The notes beneath the pieces are model-generated. The model saw only the letters and a list, made by a program, of their open reading frames with translations, was not told the DNA's origin and did no database searches. From assembly GCA_023267975.1 (NCBI GenBank), contig JALNLA010000001.1:62001-126000 (forward strand): a stretch of 64,000 nt of DNA, in the 5' to 3' direction. The translations under genes and the position numbers were made by a program. This stretch comes from Candidatus Terraquivivens ruidianensis. Lineage in GTDB: Archaea > Thermoproteota > Nitrososphaeria_A > Caldarchaeales > Wolframiiraptoraceae. Positions within the stretch are counted from its first letter, which is position 1. Every line of letters starts with the position of its first letter. This document shows positions 43,986 through 51,331 of this stretch, one piece after another.

Positions 43986-45443
43986 TTAGCGTCTTAACTT
44001 TTCTGTGAGGTATCCTTTAAGGTCTTTGATGGGGACCCTTTTCTGACCCATGGTGTCCCTTTCCCTGACCGTAACAGTTTCATCCTCCATCGTTTGGTAG
44101 TCTACGGTTACGCAGAACGGTGTGCCTATCTCATCCTGCCTCCTGTAGCGCCTACCTATGGAGCCACTCTCATCGTAAACCGTGTCAAAATCCAGCCTTA
44201 GAGCCTCGTAAACCTCCCGCGCTTTTTTGTCTAAATTGTCCTTGGTAACGAGCGGGAAGATAGCTACTTGGACCGGTGCCAACGTAGGTGGAAGCTTTAG
44301 GACAGTCCTTTCGCTTTCTTTCATGTAACTATGCTCCAGTATGCAGAAGAGACTTCTATCGACGCCCATAGAAAGCTCGAATATATGTGGTATTATTTTC
44401 TCTCCGTCGTCATAAACACTCAAATCCTGACCACTGACTCTGGAGTGGCCAGAGAGGTCATAGTCCGTCCTGTTGTTGCACGCAACTAGCTCTATCCATC
44501 CAATGCCGGTTAATACCTCTACATCCCATGCTTCCTTCGCATAGAAGGCCTTTTCCTCGTCGCTCAGTTGTCTTAGCCTGAATCGCTCCATATCGATACC
44601 TACGACTTGATAGAAGTGTTGTATGAGGGCAAGGTAGTAGGCTACGAGCATGCTCGATATGAGACCGGTCTCGACGCTTTCCTTACATGACGCTGCAATA
44701 ATTTTATCCTCATCCAAAGGTTTCAGCTTTAAAACGTAATTCTCGTACTCGCGTGCCTTTTGAAAATCGTTTGCCTTCTTTGGGTTAAAGAAGACCTCGA
44801 TCTCGGCTTGGTAAAACTCCCTAAGCCTTATCAAAGACTGTCTGGGCGATATCTCGTTCCTGAAACTCTTGCCATACTGCGCAATCGCAAACGGAAGTTT
44901 CTTCCTCATCGTTTTGTAAATCCTGAGGAAATCGACAAATATACTCTGGCAAGTTTCTGGTCTAAGGTAACACTCGTCGCCCGATGCGCCAACGTTTACT
45001 TTGAACATCATGTTAAACTTTGAAACTTTGTCGAGCTTACCTTTGCAGTTTGGACAGACGACGTTGTGTTCTGAGATGATTCTGTCCATTTCTTTTGTAT
45101 CCAGCCTTTCGGGTACTGAGAGCTTTAGAACTTCTTCGAGTAGCTTATCGGCCCTGAAGATGGCGTTACATACTGTGCACTTTGTTATCGGGTCCGTAAA
45201 ACTCTCAAGATGCCCGGAGGCTACGAATACCCTTTTCGGCATTATCTGGGAGCCGTCTATCTCTACCATTTCGTCCCTTCTAATCAACTCCCTTCGCCAA
45301 GCCTCTATGTACTTGTTCTTCATCGAAACAGCCAACGGCCCGTATTCATAGAAACCTGCTGGCGCATCGCTGTATATCTCCGAGGACGGGAAGAAGAAGT
45401 TTCGTTCAAGTGCCAACTTAATTATCTCGTCGTATAACGACAT
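43986..45443 (-). CDS. glyS: Glycyl-tRNA synthetase (class II, archaeal/eukaryal type)
   Basis: A 485-residue class II synthetase. Motif 1 region 'APAGFYEYGPLAVSMKNKYIEAW', motif 2 'FRNEISPRQSLIRLREFYQAEIEVF' and motif 3 'LSMGVDRSLFCILEHSY' are clear, plus the C-terminal anticodon-binding domain with 'VAIFPLV' and 'SIGRRYRRQDEIGTPFCVTVD'. A zinc-like site 'CTVC...CPNC' interrupts the N-terminal part. It is shorter than many archaeal GlyRS (about 570) but none of the key motifs is lost. Confidence 0.95.
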   Translation of the reverse strand: MSLYDEIIKLALERNFFFPSSEIYSDAPAGFYEYGPLAVSMKNKYIEAWRRELIRRDEMVEIDGSQIMPKRVFVASGHLESFTDPITKCTVCNAIFRADKLLEEVLKLSVPERLDTKEMDRIISEHNVVCPNCKGKLDKVSKFNMMFKVNVGASGDECYLRPETCQSIFVDFLRIYKTMRKKLPFAIAQYGKSFRNEISPRQSLIRLREFYQAEIEVFFNPKKANDFQKAREYENYVLKLKPLDEDKIIAASCKESVETGLISSMLVAYYLALIQHFYQVVGIDMERFRLRQLSDEEKAFYAKEAWDVEVLTGIGWIELVACNNRTDYDLSGHSRVSGQDLSVYDDGEKIIPHIFELSMGVDRSLFCILEHSYMKESERTVLKLPPTLAPVQVAIFPLVTKDNLDKKAREVYEALRLDFDTVYDESGSIGRRYRRQDEIGTPFCVTVDYQTMEDETVTVRERDTMGQKRVPIKDLKGYLTEKLRR

Positions 45444-45497: not shown

Positions 45498-46193
45498 TTA
45501 TCTGAGCACGGGCTTCTTGCAACTTGGACACGTACCGTTTAGGTTTACCCAGAGGTCGATGCAACCTTTGTGGAATAATGTCTGGCAGTTGCTGCACATT
45601 GAGGTAGTCTCTGGGTCCAGCTCTTGGTAGCATATCCCGCAGATGGCGCCAGGGGGTATCTCAGTTGCGTGCGTTAGTTCAACAGCTTCCTCAACAATCG
45701 GAGCTGGGGCCCCAGGATAATAGGGTCCAGTATGAGGTATTACCTCAACCCTAATAGGCGTGGCTATTATCGTGACAGCGGGGACCATCATCGCTATCGC
45801 TGAAAGATAGGACATGAATATTCCTATTCCCAAATGCCCCTCTGCCTGTAGCGCGGGTATTATCATGAAATGCGCATAAGCTGGCGATGCTATCGCAAGA
45901 AGAGCTCCAACGAGTGTGGTGGCTCCGATGAGCCATCTTGCCGTCGTTATATTCGAGAACTTCGAAGACAGCAATAGCGCAACTCCGCAAACTATACCAC
46001 CGCCGATTGACATGTAGAGGGATTCGGCAATGACGTACCCCTCTATGGAAGTCGTTGTTATCGTGTCCGATATCACGATGTACCAGGACATGAGCAGCGT
46101 GAGGATGTGGACTGCGCCGATTCCAGCAGTGATTAATGCCAGTTTAAAAAACCTCCCTATTACGGCTTGGGATGAAACTTCCAAACCCGCCAC
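45498..46193 (-). CDS. Membrane-anchored RING-finger protein, candidate ubiquitin E3 ligase
   Basis: A 231-residue protein. Residues 10-150 form four hydrophobic helices (about 15-38, 50-75, 83-105, 118-145); a Pro-rich linker leads to a C-terminal RING. The metal ligands are C185, C188, C200, C203, H208, C211, C222 and C225, a C4HC3 arrangement with the E2-contact-like Trp in 'CIDLW' and end 'CPSCKKPVL'. Ligand order and spacing match the soluble small RING protein at 47.5 kb, so the two are related. It would ubiquitinate membrane or membrane-near proteins. A TATA-like 'atttataca' on the minus strand (about 46227-46236) lies upstream; the coiled-coil gene diverges from the same region. Confidence 0.82.
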   Translation of the reverse strand: MAGLEVSSQAVIGRFFKLALITAGIGAVHILTLLMSWYIVISDTITTTSIEGYVIAESLYMSIGGGIVCGVALLLSSKFSNITTARWLIGATTLVGALLAIASPAYAHFMIIPALQAEGHLGIGIFMSYLSAIAMMVPAVTIIATPIRVEVIPHTGPYYPGAPAPIVEEAVELTHATEIPPGAICGICYQELDPETTSMCSNCQTLFHKGCIDLWVNLNGTCPSCKKPVLR

Positions 46194-46301: not shown

Positions 46302-47141
46302 ATGGGTTTTCTGGGAGGAAAGTCCAAAGAAGAGGTCTTCAATGAATTTAGAAGAGAGCTAGAGGAGCTCAGGCTCCAGCTTGAGGAGAAAATAGACAAA
46401 AAGATTGGTGCGCTCGAAAGAGCACTTAGTGAGGTCTCAGAAAACGTTAAGGAACTTATGAAGGAAAGGGCATTCCCAGAAGAGTTTCTGCTAAGCGTGA
46501 ACAAAGCAGCTGAAAAGGCGGAAAATGTTGTTAGGGAGCTGAGAGTTACGAAGGAATACCGAGAATGGTTTGATTCTATTAAGGACGGTCTTAACGACGT
46601 TTTGGAGCTACTTTCACGGGAGAGGGCCATGCTTAGGGAGGATGTGGAGAGGTTGGTTAAAGAGAGGAGCGACCTTGAGACCCTTAAAAACGAATTGAAG
46701 AAGTGGAGGGCAGACCTTGATGAGAGGGAGCAGAGGCTTTCAGCCTTTAGCGAGCGTGTTAGGGAGCTTGAAGAAAGGAAGAATAGAGTTGAGATGGAGC
46801 TTAGGGAGCTATCCCAGCGTTATTTAGTGTCGTTGGAGGATATGTTGCATAGGGTTAACGAAGAAGTGGGTAAGATAAATCGGATGTTTAAGCTAAAGGA
46901 GATAAGGCTTGAGAGGATTGTAAAGAGAGAGAGGGAACTTTCGGATGCTTTAATGAAGGTAAAGGAGCGTGAAGAATTGTCGCATGAATTAGAAAAGAGG
47001 GTAAAGGAGATGAACGAAGAGGTCTCTAAGTTAGAGAGAAAGAGGGCAGAGCTGTCAAACGATATAAACGAGCTTATGGAGCGTAAGGCAAGTTTAGAAA
47101 AGCTGGTGGGAGAGCTCAGGAGGGCTATACTTACTCCCTAA
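46302..47141 (+). CDS. Long coiled-coil protein
   Basis: A 279-residue, almost wholly coiled-coil protein with about 40 percent charged residues: heptad-like runs 'EVFNEFRRELEELRLQLEEKIDKKI', 'LKKWRADLDEREQRLSAFSERVRELEERKNRVE' and 'LEKRVKEMNEEVSKLERKRAELSNDINELMERK'. The N-terminal 'MGFLGGKSKEE' could be a short membrane- or protein-docking tag. No enzyme motif. It diverges from the membrane RING gene and converges on the E1-RING operon (4-bp overlap), so a structural partner of the ubiquitin apparatus is possible but unproved. Confidence 0.75.
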   Translation: MGFLGGKSKEEVFNEFRRELEELRLQLEEKIDKKIGALERALSEVSENVKELMKERAFPEEFLLSVNKAAEKAENVVRELRVTKEYREWFDSIKDGLNDVLELLSRERAMLREDVERLVKERSDLETLKNELKKWRADLDEREQRLSAFSERVRELEERKNRVEMELRELSQRYLVSLEDMLHRVNEEVGKINRMFKLKEIRLERIVKRERELSDALMKVKEREELSHELEKRVKEMNEEVSKLERKRAELSNDINELMERKASLEKLVGELRRAILTP

Positions 47142-47449
47142 TCTTTTCTAAGTGTTTTCTCCAAAGTTTCGATTAAGCTATTAAAGGCCTCTATGAGAGA
47201 GTCTATATGCGCGAGTATCTGGTCCTGACCCTTCTCCAAAGCCGCTAACCTACTTTCCAGCCTGTTCAATAGGTCGGTGCTCGGTATTTTATTTTCGAGC
47301 GATTGGACTTTAGTCGAAAGTTCTTCGGTGTCCTCATGAATCATGGAAATTGCTTCAGCTAATTTCTTAACCGTGTTGAGTGATGCCACTTTTCCCCCGG
47401 GCGTATCCACGTACTCTAAATCTATTACAAATTCTTCTTCCTCGCTCAT
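47138..47449 (-). CDS. Short coiled-coil protein in the E1-RING operon
   Basis: A 103-residue protein with acidic N-terminus, beta-turn 'YVDTPGGKVASLNTVKKLAEAIS' and a coiled coil from about residue 40 to 98 ('LSTKVQSLENKIPSTDLLNRLESRLAALEKGQDQIL'). It is the third gene of the E1 - small RING - coiled-coil operon (4-bp overlap with the RING gene). Its constant coupling suggests a scaffold or specificity subunit for the RING ligase. No known family recognised. Confidence 0.7.
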   Translation of the reverse strand: MSEEEEFVIDLEYVDTPGGKVASLNTVKKLAEAISMIHEDTEELSTKVQSLENKIPSTDLLNRLESRLAALEKGQDQILAHIDSLIEAFNSLIETLEKTLRKD

Positions 47450-47679
47450 AACACCACCTCCAGTACTGGCCTCTTACATATTGGGCAGGCGTTCCTTATG
47501 CTTAGCCAATTATCAAAACATGTCTTATGACCTACGGCACCGCAGTGGGGGCACGTTATTGTCGCCGCACCCTCATCAATCTCAGAAGTGCAAATTGGGC
47601 ACATCTTACTTACCGTCTTAGCTTTTACCCAGATCCACTTGCCTATGCAAACTTCACGCCCTATCACTACTCTCAACAA
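47446..47679 (-). CDS. Small RING-finger protein (E3-like) of the ubiquitin cluster
   Basis: A 77-residue protein; ligands C27, C30, C43, C46, H51, C54, C65, C68 with 'CFDNW' and end 'CPICKRPVL'. This corresponds to the small zinc RING finger protein reported in the Caldiarchaeum ubiquitin cluster, which promotes E2-dependent ubiquitin transfer. It starts at TTG, overlapping the E1 stop region by 26 bp, so it is translationally linked to E1. The N-terminal 25 residues are basic and hydrophobic with no clear role. Confidence 0.88.
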   Translation of the reverse strand: MLRVVIGREVCIGKWIWVKAKTVSKMCPICTSEIDEGAATITCPHCGAVGHKTCFDNWLSIRNACPICKRPVLEVVL

Positions 47680-48988: not shown

Positions 48989-49660
48989 ATGATTAGCTGG
49001 ACGATAGATAACAGGCCGTCTTATACCGTGCTGAAGGTGAAGTTAGACCCTGGTGATTCTGTGACGTCAGAGGGTGGAGCGATGATGGCGATGAAGGGTG
49101 ACGTTGAAGTCAAGACGTCCACAGGTGGTATGAGGGGTGCAATACTAAGAGGGCTCGCAGGCGGCGAGTCCCTATTTTTGAATACATTCTCGACAAGGAC
49201 AGGTGGTGAAATCTGGCTTGTTCCACCAATGCCTGGAGATGTGGAATACATACCCCTTAACAATGAGGGCTACCTGATTCAGGACACCTCATACTTGGCG
49301 CATCACGGCGACGTAAAAGTGAGCGTTGGGTGGATGGGAGTAAAGGGCGTGCTGGCCGAGGGGCAATTTGTGTGGTTGAGTGTAAAGGGAACTGGAGGTG
49401 TGTGGGTAAACTCATTTGGTGCAATCGAAAAAGTCGAGCTACAACCTCACGAGAAGGTGAGTGTGGATAATTTCCACTTCGTAGCCATGCCGGAGAACAC
49501 CAAGTGGAGCGTGAGGAAGTTCGGCGGCTGGAAGAGCTTTCTTCTGGGAGGTGAGGGCATAATATTTGACGTCGAAGGTCCGACAAGAATCTACCTTCAG
49601 ACACGAGTACTCCCGCTGTTTGCAGAACTCTTGGCACCATACCTCCCCAGACAGAGATGA
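48989..49660 (+). CDS. AIM24/TIGR00266 family protein
   Basis: A 223-residue beta-rich protein of the TIGR00266/AIM24 family: 'LDPGDSVTSEGGAMMAMKGDVEVKTST', 'GGESLFLNTFSTRTGGEIWLVPPMPGDV' and late 'WKSFLLGGEGIIFDVEGPTRIYLQTR'. The fold is a double-stranded beta-helix like a tryptophan-RNA-binding attenuation protein. Function is unknown (mitochondrial AIM24 affects inner membrane organisation). It lies between the two divided ubiquitin operons on the opposite strand, which may be chance. Confidence 0.85.
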   Translation: MISWTIDNRPSYTVLKVKLDPGDSVTSEGGAMMAMKGDVEVKTSTGGMRGAILRGLAGGESLFLNTFSTRTGGEIWLVPPMPGDVEYIPLNNEGYLIQDTSYLAHHGDVKVSVGWMGVKGVLAEGQFVWLSVKGTGGVWVNSFGAIEKVELQPHEKVSVDNFHFVAMPENTKWSVRKFGGWKSFLLGGEGIIFDVEGPTRIYLQTRVLPLFAELLAPYLPRQR

Positions 49661-49697: not shown

Positions 49698-50204
49698 CTA
49701 CATTCGCCACCTTAGCTTTTTCTCAAAGACCTTATCTGGAGTTGCGTATAACTGTATGTAATACTTAACCCTATTCAAAAAAACGTCTGGCCTATATTTC
49801 ATTTCGTAAGCGGCTATCGAGTTAAGCGGGTCGTCCGGGTTCGGGTTGGCCAGTAGATTTTGGAGCGACTCGATGATGTTTACGAGGTATAGCCCTGGCC
49901 TCCAGTCGTCTTTGAATATAGACTCGCATATCTTAGCAGGAACTTCGTCTGTGAAGTTAGGATGCCATATCCTCGTATGCCAAATTACGTTTGGCGGCGT
50001 GTACGGATACGACCTCGGTATCTTTATCTCTATCTTAAAGTATCCACCCTCGTAGTACCCAGAGCCCACGATTATGCCCGCATAGTGTGTCAGGTCACCA
50101 TCAACTATATCGAATAAGGGGGGGTCGCGCTCTTGTATCAGCCTATACTCTACGGCTAGCCTCTTATTCCATAAAGATTCAGGTAACTCTGAGTAGGCCT
50201 CCAG
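49698..50204 (-). CDS. Ubiquitin-conjugating enzyme E2-like protein, start codon unresolved
   Basis: The UBC core is clear: 'YYEGGYFKIEIKIPRSYPYTPP', 'HPNFTDEVPAKIC' with the catalytic Cys, and 'W-R-P-G-L-Y-L-V-N-I-I-E-S-L-Q-N-L-L'. The first conventional start (GTG 50069) would give 123 residues without helix 1 and strand 1. Yet the frame upstream encodes exactly these: 'LWNKRLAVEYRLIQERDPP' then 'FDIVDGDLTHYAGII'. No ATG, GTG or TTG exists in frame up to the stop at 50247-50249. The coordinates given assume a CTG at 50202-50204, preceded 5-12 bases upstream by a G-rich 'gggggtgg'. The alternative is a -1 frameshift from ubiquitin, joining at 50213. Confidence 0.85.
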   Translation of the reverse strand: MEAYSELPESLWNKRLAVEYRLIQERDPPLFDIVDGDLTHYAGIIVGSGYYEGGYFKIEIKIPRSYPYTPPNVIWHTRIWHPNFTDEVPAKICESIFKDDWRPGLYLVNIIESLQNLLANPNPDDPLNSIAAYEMKYRPDVFLNRVKYYIQLYATPDKVFEKKLRWRM

Positions 50205-50446
50205 AGACGCCCACCCCCAACAGTTCTTGTTATGATGACTAATTTGTCACCGTCCGATACCCCTATATTGGCGAGCGTCTCCGTTTCTTTCAAAGCCCTG
50301 CCCTTGTACGTTAAGTGCGTGGTATCTGGCGGGAGTTTCTTAATTGCGCAAACCTTCGTCTTCACCGCTCCTATAGTTGCGTTTGGTGAGACTTCTAACT
50401 CTAGCGGACTGCCGCCGCCGACTGCAGGTATAACCTTGATTTTCAT
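50156..50446 (-). CDS. Ubiquitin-like modifier precursor
   Basis: A 96-residue beta-grasp protein opening 'MKIKVIPAVGGGSPLELEV' with the central helix 'IGAVKTKVCAIKKLPPD' and 'THLTYKGRALKETETL', the counterparts of ubiquitin's helix and 'QRLIFAGKQLEDGRTL' strand. It reaches Gly-Gly-Gly at 77-79 and then an 18-residue tail ('RLWRPTQSYLNLYGIRG'), so it needs a protease to expose the di-glycine; the Rpn11-like JAMM gene next door is the obvious candidate. Lysines at 29, 31, 36, 37, 48 and 53 could allow chains. A TATA 'gtatttaaatat' (50481-50492) lies about 35-45 bp upstream. Confidence 0.92.
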   Translation of the reverse strand: MKIKVIPAVGGGSPLELEVSPNATIGAVKTKVCAIKKLPPDTTHLTYKGRALKETETLANIGVSDGDKLVIITRTVGGGRLWRPTQSYLNLYGIRG

Positions 50447-50641: not shown

Positions 50642-51331
50642 ATGAGAGCACGAATTTATCCCTTAGCGCTCGGCAAGATACTTCACCATTCTATCAGCAA
50701 CATTAATCAAGAAGTTGCAGGATTAATGGTAGGAAAAGTCGTATCTGATGTCGTTGAGGTTTGGGATACGGTCACAGGCTCTCAACAAAACTCACCTGCG
50801 TACGTTAAGCTTGAAGAGAGCGTTATGGCCTTGGTTGCCGAGGTTCTATTGGAAAACCTTCCAGACCTGTACATAGTCGGCTGGTATCATTCGCATCCTG
50901 GTCTAAACGTCTTCATGTCACCCATAGATATCGAGACGCAAAGAACCTACCAGGCCATGTTCCCTAAGGCCATAGCGTTAGTGATAGACCCCGTGCAATT
51001 TAGCGTTAGTTGGAAGATTTCAGACCTTAAGATTGGCGTGTTTAGGATAGATAAAAATAAGGGGATAGTGCCTGTAAGATTCACACTCGGTTTACAACGA
51101 CGCAAGGTCCTAGAAAGCACGTTAATCGGTCTCCAAACTCTTGATTTAATGCCCAAAGGACCCGATGTTAAGGATGAGGAGCTAGTAAAGGTTAGCGCTA
51201 CTGAAAAAACTGATAACATCGATTATATAGTAAAGTTTTTTAGTAGAGCCAAAAAACTCTTACCAGGAAAAAAGGATAGAAGTAGAGGTGTGGATTCTTC
51301 AAAGGTCAGGTTTAATCAGGAGGAGTTATAA
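50642..51331 (+). CDS. Rpn11-like JAMM metalloprotease (deubiquitinase)
   Basis: A 229-residue MPN+ protein. The JAMM zinc site is complete: E24 in 'NQEVAGLMVGK', H83 and H85 in 'GWYHSHPG', S93 and D96 in 'FMSPIDIETQ'. The longer 'HSHPGLNVFMSPIDIETQ' and the C-terminal helices (about 160-229) match eukaryotic Rpn11/CSN5 more than the short prokaryotic JAMMs. It should remove the ubiquitin tail extension and cut isopeptide bonds. The stop codon overlaps the ATG of the next gene (TAATG), giving a two-gene operon divergent from Ub-E2. Confidence 0.93.
   Translation: MRARIYPLALGKILHHSISNINQEVAGLMVGKVVSDVVEVWDTVTGSQQNSPAYVKLEESVMALVAEVLLENLPDLYIVGWYHSHPGLNVFMSPIDIETQRTYQAMFPKAIALVIDPVQFSVSWKISDLKIGVFRIDKNKGIVPVRFTLGLQRRKVLESTLIGLQTLDLMPKGPDVKDEELVKVSATEKTDNIDYIVKFFSRAKKLLPGKKDRSRGVDSSKVRFNQEEL

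Follow-up and report, generated by a model that had tools for sequence, protein, structure and literature searches.

The closest models known for the ancestor of eukaryotic ubiquitylation are the ubiquitin systems of archaea, which have been investigated as a soluble set consisting of E1, E2 and a small RING protein. Ubiquitylation at the membrane is a defining trait of protein quality control and trafficking in eukaryotes. In C. subterraneum, the small RING protein (srfp) was treated as the E3 (Hennell James et al., 2017; PMC5654768). Exchange I30Q in srfp abolishes the ligation reaction and W58A and R69A impair it, while the exchange PY67/68AA in the E2 also abolishes it (PMC5654768). The operon of this organism has further been described, in a single clause that cites Nunoura et al. 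(2011), as "adjacent to a second E3 protein" (Fuchs et al., 2018; PMC6043591), a text that gives no membrane architecture, conservation or function for this protein. In addition, several C3H2C3-type RINGs were counted by Pfam in aigarchaeotes (Grau-Bove et al., 2014).

The gene examined here, TM-RING, lies in a 64,000-nucleotide stretch of DNA from Candidatus Terraquivivens ruidianensis (the window). Comparison of its sequence with that of its orthologs makes it likely that the product is a membrane-anchored RING-type E3, or the E2-binding subunit of one, acting in the local system of ubiquitin, E1, E2 and Rpn11. Caldarchaeales would then probably attach ubiquitin not only in the cytosol but also at the cell membrane, and membrane ubiquitylation would already exist in a prokaryote whose RING ligases number just two. 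The srfp of C. subterraneum resembles TM-RING in its C4HC3 ligands, near-identical spacing, E2-contact Ile and Trp and gene neighbourhood (PMC5654768), and resembles the TM-RINGs of family f1 also in the basic residue after the last Cys. However, srfp orthologs have about 60-90 aa and no membrane domain, whereas TM-RING adds a four-helix domain, and the two kinds of RING fall into separate groups. The initial annotation had proposed a second archaeal E3 candidate outside the described minimal archaeal set. A membrane-embedded second RING that carries E2-contact residues and is co-inherited with the ubiquitin system is indeed present, but the existence of a second E3 had already been mentioned (PMC6043591). 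What appears to be new is the membrane domain, its conservation throughout the order and the divergence of srfp in family f2, for which we found no description in the accessible literature, Nunoura et al. (2011) not being part of it. The gene and its parts are the following:

45498 to 46193, minus strand: TM-RING gene, 231 aa, with a GTG start at 46193 that the ortholog alignment backs
46092 to 46172, minus strand: predicted membrane helix 1, residues 8-34, with invariant R14, H29 and L33 and with invariant W37 just after it
45960 to 46028, minus strand: predicted membrane helix 2, residues 56-78, with invariant S62 and G70
45849 to 45950, minus strand: predicted long membrane helix 3, residues 82-115, with invariant S103
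45762 to 45827, minus strand: predicted membrane helix 4, residues 123-144, with invariant G124
45642 to 45761, minus strand: linker to the RING, residues 145-184, modelled with low confidence at 157-167 and differing in length and sequence between families
45519 to 45641, minus strand: RING domain, C185 to C225, with I187 and W215 at the E2-contact positions

The open reading frame occupies exactly the positions first assigned to it, on the minus strand and with a GTG start and 231 codons for amino acids. Its assignment as four transmembrane helices followed by a C-terminal RING was borne out by family-mean hydropathy, which gives four membrane segments, by the AlphaFold2 model and by the match to zf-RING_2. 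The model, built with 37 orthologs, has a mean pLDDT of 89.5 and places the helices at residues 8-34, 56-78, 82-115 and 123-144, with short strands, some following helix 1 and others preceding helix 4; a model from f2 sequences alone reached a pLDDT of 68.7, too poor for a check of the fold. The protein is predicted to have both termini inside, with the RING facing the cell interior. The side is read from the model and from a charge bias, with a mean K+R of 2.4 at the N-terminus, 2.6 in the inner loop, 0.4 in outer loop 1 and 1.4 in outer loop 2, the last of which holds some K/R, so that the charge rule is not clean for this protein. Residues R14, H29, L33, W37, G52, S62, G70, S103 and G124 are invariant, which argues that the membrane domain is more than a mere anchor.

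When the model was compared with the PDB by Foldseek, claudins and TARPs held the first 22 ranks, none of them below E 0.001; the best match had E 2.5e-3, probability 1.0 and a TM-score of about 0.57 by target length. Claudins and the TARP/Cav-gamma proteins share with TM-RING the four helices, the long third helix, a Trp right after helix 1 and beta strands in both outer loops. They differ from it by an rmsd of about 5 A and by the RING that is fused to TM-RING. The membrane profile matched no PDB chain at E<=10, no Pfam claudin match was found, and the outer loops of TM-RING contain no Cys, so that the claudin-type Cys pair is missing. We regard the claudin likeness as probably a fold resemblance of moderate strength and do not claim homology. 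The same comparison bears on a second suggestion made at the outset, according to which TM-RING would resemble ER-associated ligases of eukaryotes. Hrd1/synoviolin, gp78 and ZNRF3 are, like TM-RING, membrane-embedded proteins with a cytosolic RING (predicted in the case of TM-RING) that match its RING profile, but their membrane domains differ. The likeness can therefore be kept as a functional analogy only, with Hrd1/synoviolin and gp78 being two among many E3s matched by the RING profile; a membrane domain of the Hrd1/gp78 type was rejected, given that no PDB chain matched in sequence and that the fold matches are claudins and TARPs. No free-standing copy of the membrane domain without a RING occurs in the 398 genomes, and no known phage family was found for TM-RING.

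The RING domain matches zf-RING_2 (PF13639) with 37.2 bits against a curated cut-off of 27.3 (E 3.5e-9), and all 37 aligned orthologs match this profile at E<=1. Its eight zinc ligands, C185-x2-C188-x11-C200-x2-C203-x4-H208-x2-C211-x10-C222-x2-C225, stand in cross-brace order and are all invariant in these 37 orthologs. The ligands of srfp follow the pattern C-x2-C-x12-C-x2-C-x4-H-x2-C-x10-C-x2-C, which upholds the earlier observation of a shared order and nearly the same spacing, the difference being a single residue in the first loop. The motifs F/I-D-x-W and CPxCKxPVL, also pointed out before, are found as IDLW and CPSCKKPVL in TM-RING and as FDNW and CPICKRPVL in srfp. A chance origin of the pattern was rejected, since none of 200,000 shuffles of the protein reproduced it and since it is conserved throughout the order. 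With T205 at the usual site of the first His and C200/C203 at the second site, the ligands follow the order C4HC3, and srfp is alike in this respect. This excludes a classical RING-H2 (C3H2C3), that is, the subtype and not the RING class. PHD fingers share the C4HC3 order and are mostly not E3s; the PHD profile matches TM-RING with E 0.006. When a profile of the RING of TM-RING was compared with the PDB, it matched RINGs of proven E3s, including Arkadia (3.5e-12), ZNRF3 (1.2e-11), synoviolin (3.5e-8), RNF165, RNF38 and gp78.

Residues I187, W215 and K226 of TM-RING are the counterparts of I30, W58 and R69 of srfp, with K226 at the linchpin position just past the RING domain. Among the 40 orthologs that fit the RING pattern, the residue between the first two Cys is I in 39 and L in one, and the Trp position holds W in 37 and Y in three. 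The linchpin is more variable: it is K or R in f1 and in two members of f4 (K in the window species and in most of f1), G in 12 of 12 members of f2, and one of G, Q and N in f3 and the other members of f4. C. subterraneum itself has Tyr at the Trp position and Gly at the linchpin of its TM-RING. Retention of the E2-contact residues together with a Gly linchpin, in f2 and in C. subterraneum, is what one would expect of an inactive pseudo-ligase, which would limit soluble ubiquitylation by holding E2 or srfp back at the membrane. We consider this very improbable, as the linchpin is K in the window species and most of f1 and as the RING is under strong constraint. Compared with four congeners, TM-RING has an overall dN/dS of about 0.10-0.12. 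The RING has the lowest values (0.04-0.07 in those comparisons that allowed a computation), and in three of the four comparisons the linker has the highest. TM-RING is under purifying selection, which is strong across the whole RING.

The distribution of TM-RING was followed in 44 genomes of the order Caldarchaeales and in 354 other genomes of the phylum. The initial annotation had called for a search of Aigarchaeota for four-helix RING proteins of this kind, and orthologs were found in 41 of the 44 genomes, with one copy each. Wide occurrence in archaea that have no ubiquitin genes had been named as an observation that would speak against an E3; within this phylum, the membrane-domain profile found no ortholog in any of the 354 genomes outside the order. 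The sole protein-search match there (G168) is a 66-residue stretch with two stops and was discarded as spurious. TM-RING is missing from three genomes: in G020 and G037 the locus is truncated by contig ends, and in G006 the expected place has other content. E2, ubiquitin and E1-like matches occur in 44/44 genomes of the order, with only divergent forms in G043 (57% complete), and all 41 genomes with TM-RING also carry E2, ubiquitin and E1. Elsewhere in the phylum, a weaker E2 match exceeds the cut-off in six genomes, and none of these six encodes a zf-RING_2 protein, as opposed to 43/44 genomes of the order in the same search. TM-RING thus co-occurs exclusively with the ubiquitin system within this phylum.

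Each well-assembled genome of the order encodes exactly two zf-RING_2 proteins, srfp and TM-RING. We take genome G024 to be C. subterraneum; in its srfp, residues I, W and R are spaced like I30, W58 and R69 in the protein described before. Since G024 has only two zf-RING_2 proteins, the "second E3" mentioned for this organism would by elimination be the ortholog of TM-RING. A search with the single protein found only three close relatives in named genomes, two of which, in family f1, are named Geocrenenecus; this, together with the identity of G024, indicates that the order corresponds to the former Aigarchaeota. In a tree of 40 TM-RINGs and 38 small RINGs, the two kinds are split by one branch (98/91), and only this split is taken from the tree, which is based on as few as 46 columns. 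In the tree of TM-RING, families f2, f3 and f4 form clades and f1 is not resolved, a pattern that fits vertical inheritance since the ancestor of the order.

TM-RING is surrounded by the genes of the ubiquitin system and by two coiled-coil proteins:

43986 to 45443, minus strand: glycyl-tRNA synthetase (GlyRS), 54 bases downstream of TM-RING on the same strand
46302 to 47141, plus strand: 279-aa coiled-coil protein (CC279), divergent neighbour of TM-RING and largely confined to the order
47138 to 47449, minus strand: 103-aa coiled-coil protein, overlapping the srfp stop by 4 bases and found beside srfp in most families
47446 to 47679, minus strand: srfp, the small RING protein orthologous to the E3 of C. 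subterraneum (PMC5654768)
47654 to 48841, minus strand: E1-like protein, ThiF with a C-terminal ubiquitin-like domain
49698 to 50210, minus strand: E2-like protein (UQ_con), in a frame that is open upstream of its first ATG/GTG/TTG codon
50156 to 50446, minus strand: pro-ubiquitin, in the ubiquitin operon
50642 to 51331, plus strand: Rpn11/JAMM deubiquitinase, divergent from the ubiquitin operon

Families f1, f3 and f4 share the gene order Rpn11 (divergent), ubiquitin, E2, E1, srfp, 103-aa coiled coil, CC279 (on the other strand), TM-RING and GlyRS, which is usually followed by PhoU. Linkage of TM-RING to E1 is seen in 21 genomes, one of them that of the window, and contig ends account for most of the others; exceptions to the operon linkage in these families are G026, where TM-RING is on another contig, and G006, which misses it. 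In f2, ubiquitin, E2 and E1 are far off, yet 8 of the 12 genomes still have srfp, CC279, TM-RING and GlyRS in one group. Four f2 genomes of genus g9 have TM-RING beside GlyRS only, and in one of that genus (G028) srfp, the 103-aa protein and CC279 are grouped elsewhere. CC279 occurs in 40/44 genomes of the order and only weak coiled-coil matches were found outside, in four genomes; the two conserved coiled-coil proteins that flank srfp are possible partners of the RING proteins. TM-RING itself lies outside the ubiquitin operon, from which CC279 on the opposite strand separates it, and is most closely associated with the GlyRS gene, the next recognised gene downstream in 41/41 genomes (reversed in two). 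A transcription start of its own is probable for TM-RING, given the 108 bases between it and the divergent CC279 and the 54 bases that precede GlyRS on its other side.

The ubiquitin operon of the window has two further peculiarities. An AIM24-family gene (48989-49660, plus strand) sits between E2 and E1 on the opposite strand; it is found at the same place in G003 and is missing from most relatives. In the window (50069-50210, minus strand) and in G004, the E2 frame is open into the ubiquitin gene, but no ATG, GTG or TTG precedes E2 profile position 40; in four other congeners a GTG is present there. The frame is shifted by a one-base difference that follows the GG codons of ubiquitin, so that the E2 start may be CTG or depend on translational coupling.

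The constant GlyRS neighbour raises the question of whether the C-terminal domain might be a zinc-binding interaction or regulatory module with no role in ubiquitylation, its proximity to the ubiquitin genes reflecting nothing but a stable GlyRS neighbourhood. Two of the points that weigh against an E3, namely the non-conserved linchpin and a C4HC3 order that is common to PHD fingers, would fit this explanation as well, and so would the fact that the tightest linkage is that to GlyRS (41/41). We nevertheless find it quite unlikely, in view of the exclusive co-occurrence with the ubiquitin system in the phylum, the near-invariant Ile and Trp/Tyr at the E2-contact positions, the best RING-profile matches, which are proven E3 RINGs, and a link to srfp and CC279 that persists where ubiquitin, E2 and E1 are no longer nearby.

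For TM-RING as a membrane-anchored E3 or its E2-binding subunit, we infer topology, E2 docking, catalysis and substrates as follows. The four helices would hold the protein in the cell membrane with both ends inside, and the 40-residue linker would let the cytoplasmic RING dock the E2~ubiquitin thioester via I187 and W215, with K226 helping to set the closed state in the source lineage. These roles are assigned because the matching residues matter by mutation in the small RING of C. subterraneum. The membrane domain, which carries a small outer beta sheet besides the invariant residues R14, H29, W37, S62 and S103, might select or sense membrane-associated substrates. These would be tagged at the inner face and subsequently deubiquitylated by Rpn11 or extracted and degraded; the source genome encodes two Cdc48_N proteins, and two such Cdc48-type ATPases would make the extraction step possible. 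For one member of the order, an in vitro system reconstituted from a cognate ubiquitin, E1, E2 and small RING is already at hand, so that this mechanism can be tested at once.

Family f2 sets the two RINGs of the order apart. As far as can be read from the alignments, its membrane RING has kept both E2-contact residues and its srfp has lost both: in f2 srfp (e.g. L032:8605-8811), A or V replaces I/V and L replaces W, while the zinc ligands, the basic linchpin and the coiled-coil neighbours are retained. The membrane RING would consequently be the sole f2 RING with both contact residues. We know of no earlier report of this loss.

Such a division of residues, with I/W and a G linchpin in TM-RING and A or V, L and an R/K linchpin in srfp, could also point to a two-RING E3, in which TM-RING, no ligase by itself, would be the membrane receptor half that recruits E2 or substrate and srfp, its partner, would supply the activating basic residue, similar to the heterodimeric RING ligases of eukaryotes. 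Both RINGs co-occur across the order, and TM-RING, srfp and CC279 have stayed together in 8 f2 genomes after the departure of ubiquitin, E2 and E1. In known RING dimers, however, the linchpin lies within the RING that binds E2, and both f1 RINGs look complete, so that a pair would not be needed there. Moreover, C. subterraneum srfp works in vitro without TM-RING (PMC5654768), and altogether we judge a two-RING E3 unlikely. Returning to TM-RING as an E3 or E2-binding subunit in its own right, we tentatively raise the possibility that the membrane RING, and not srfp, might be the constant E3 of the order, being the only one of the two to keep both E2-contact positions in every family, and might act as a claudin-like four-helix sensor-ligase. 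If this were true, membrane ubiquitylation would not have needed the eukaryotic endomembrane system.

Two further observations concern the ubiquitin genes of f2. Genus g9 has a second ubiquitin-like cluster (L096:5095-7869, G040:C29; also in G028, G041 and G043), which consists of a ThiF E1-like gene, a 273-aa ORF and a JAMM protease. The 273-aa ORF begins with a ubiquitin-like domain that ends in GG and passes directly into an E2-like domain, and thus looks like a ubiquitin-E2 polyprotein cleavable by JAMM. The ubiquitin of G028 (L086:5524-5760) has 78 aa and ends exactly at GG, so that maturation by Rpn11 would be unnecessary, whereas the precursors in the genus of the window are tailed.
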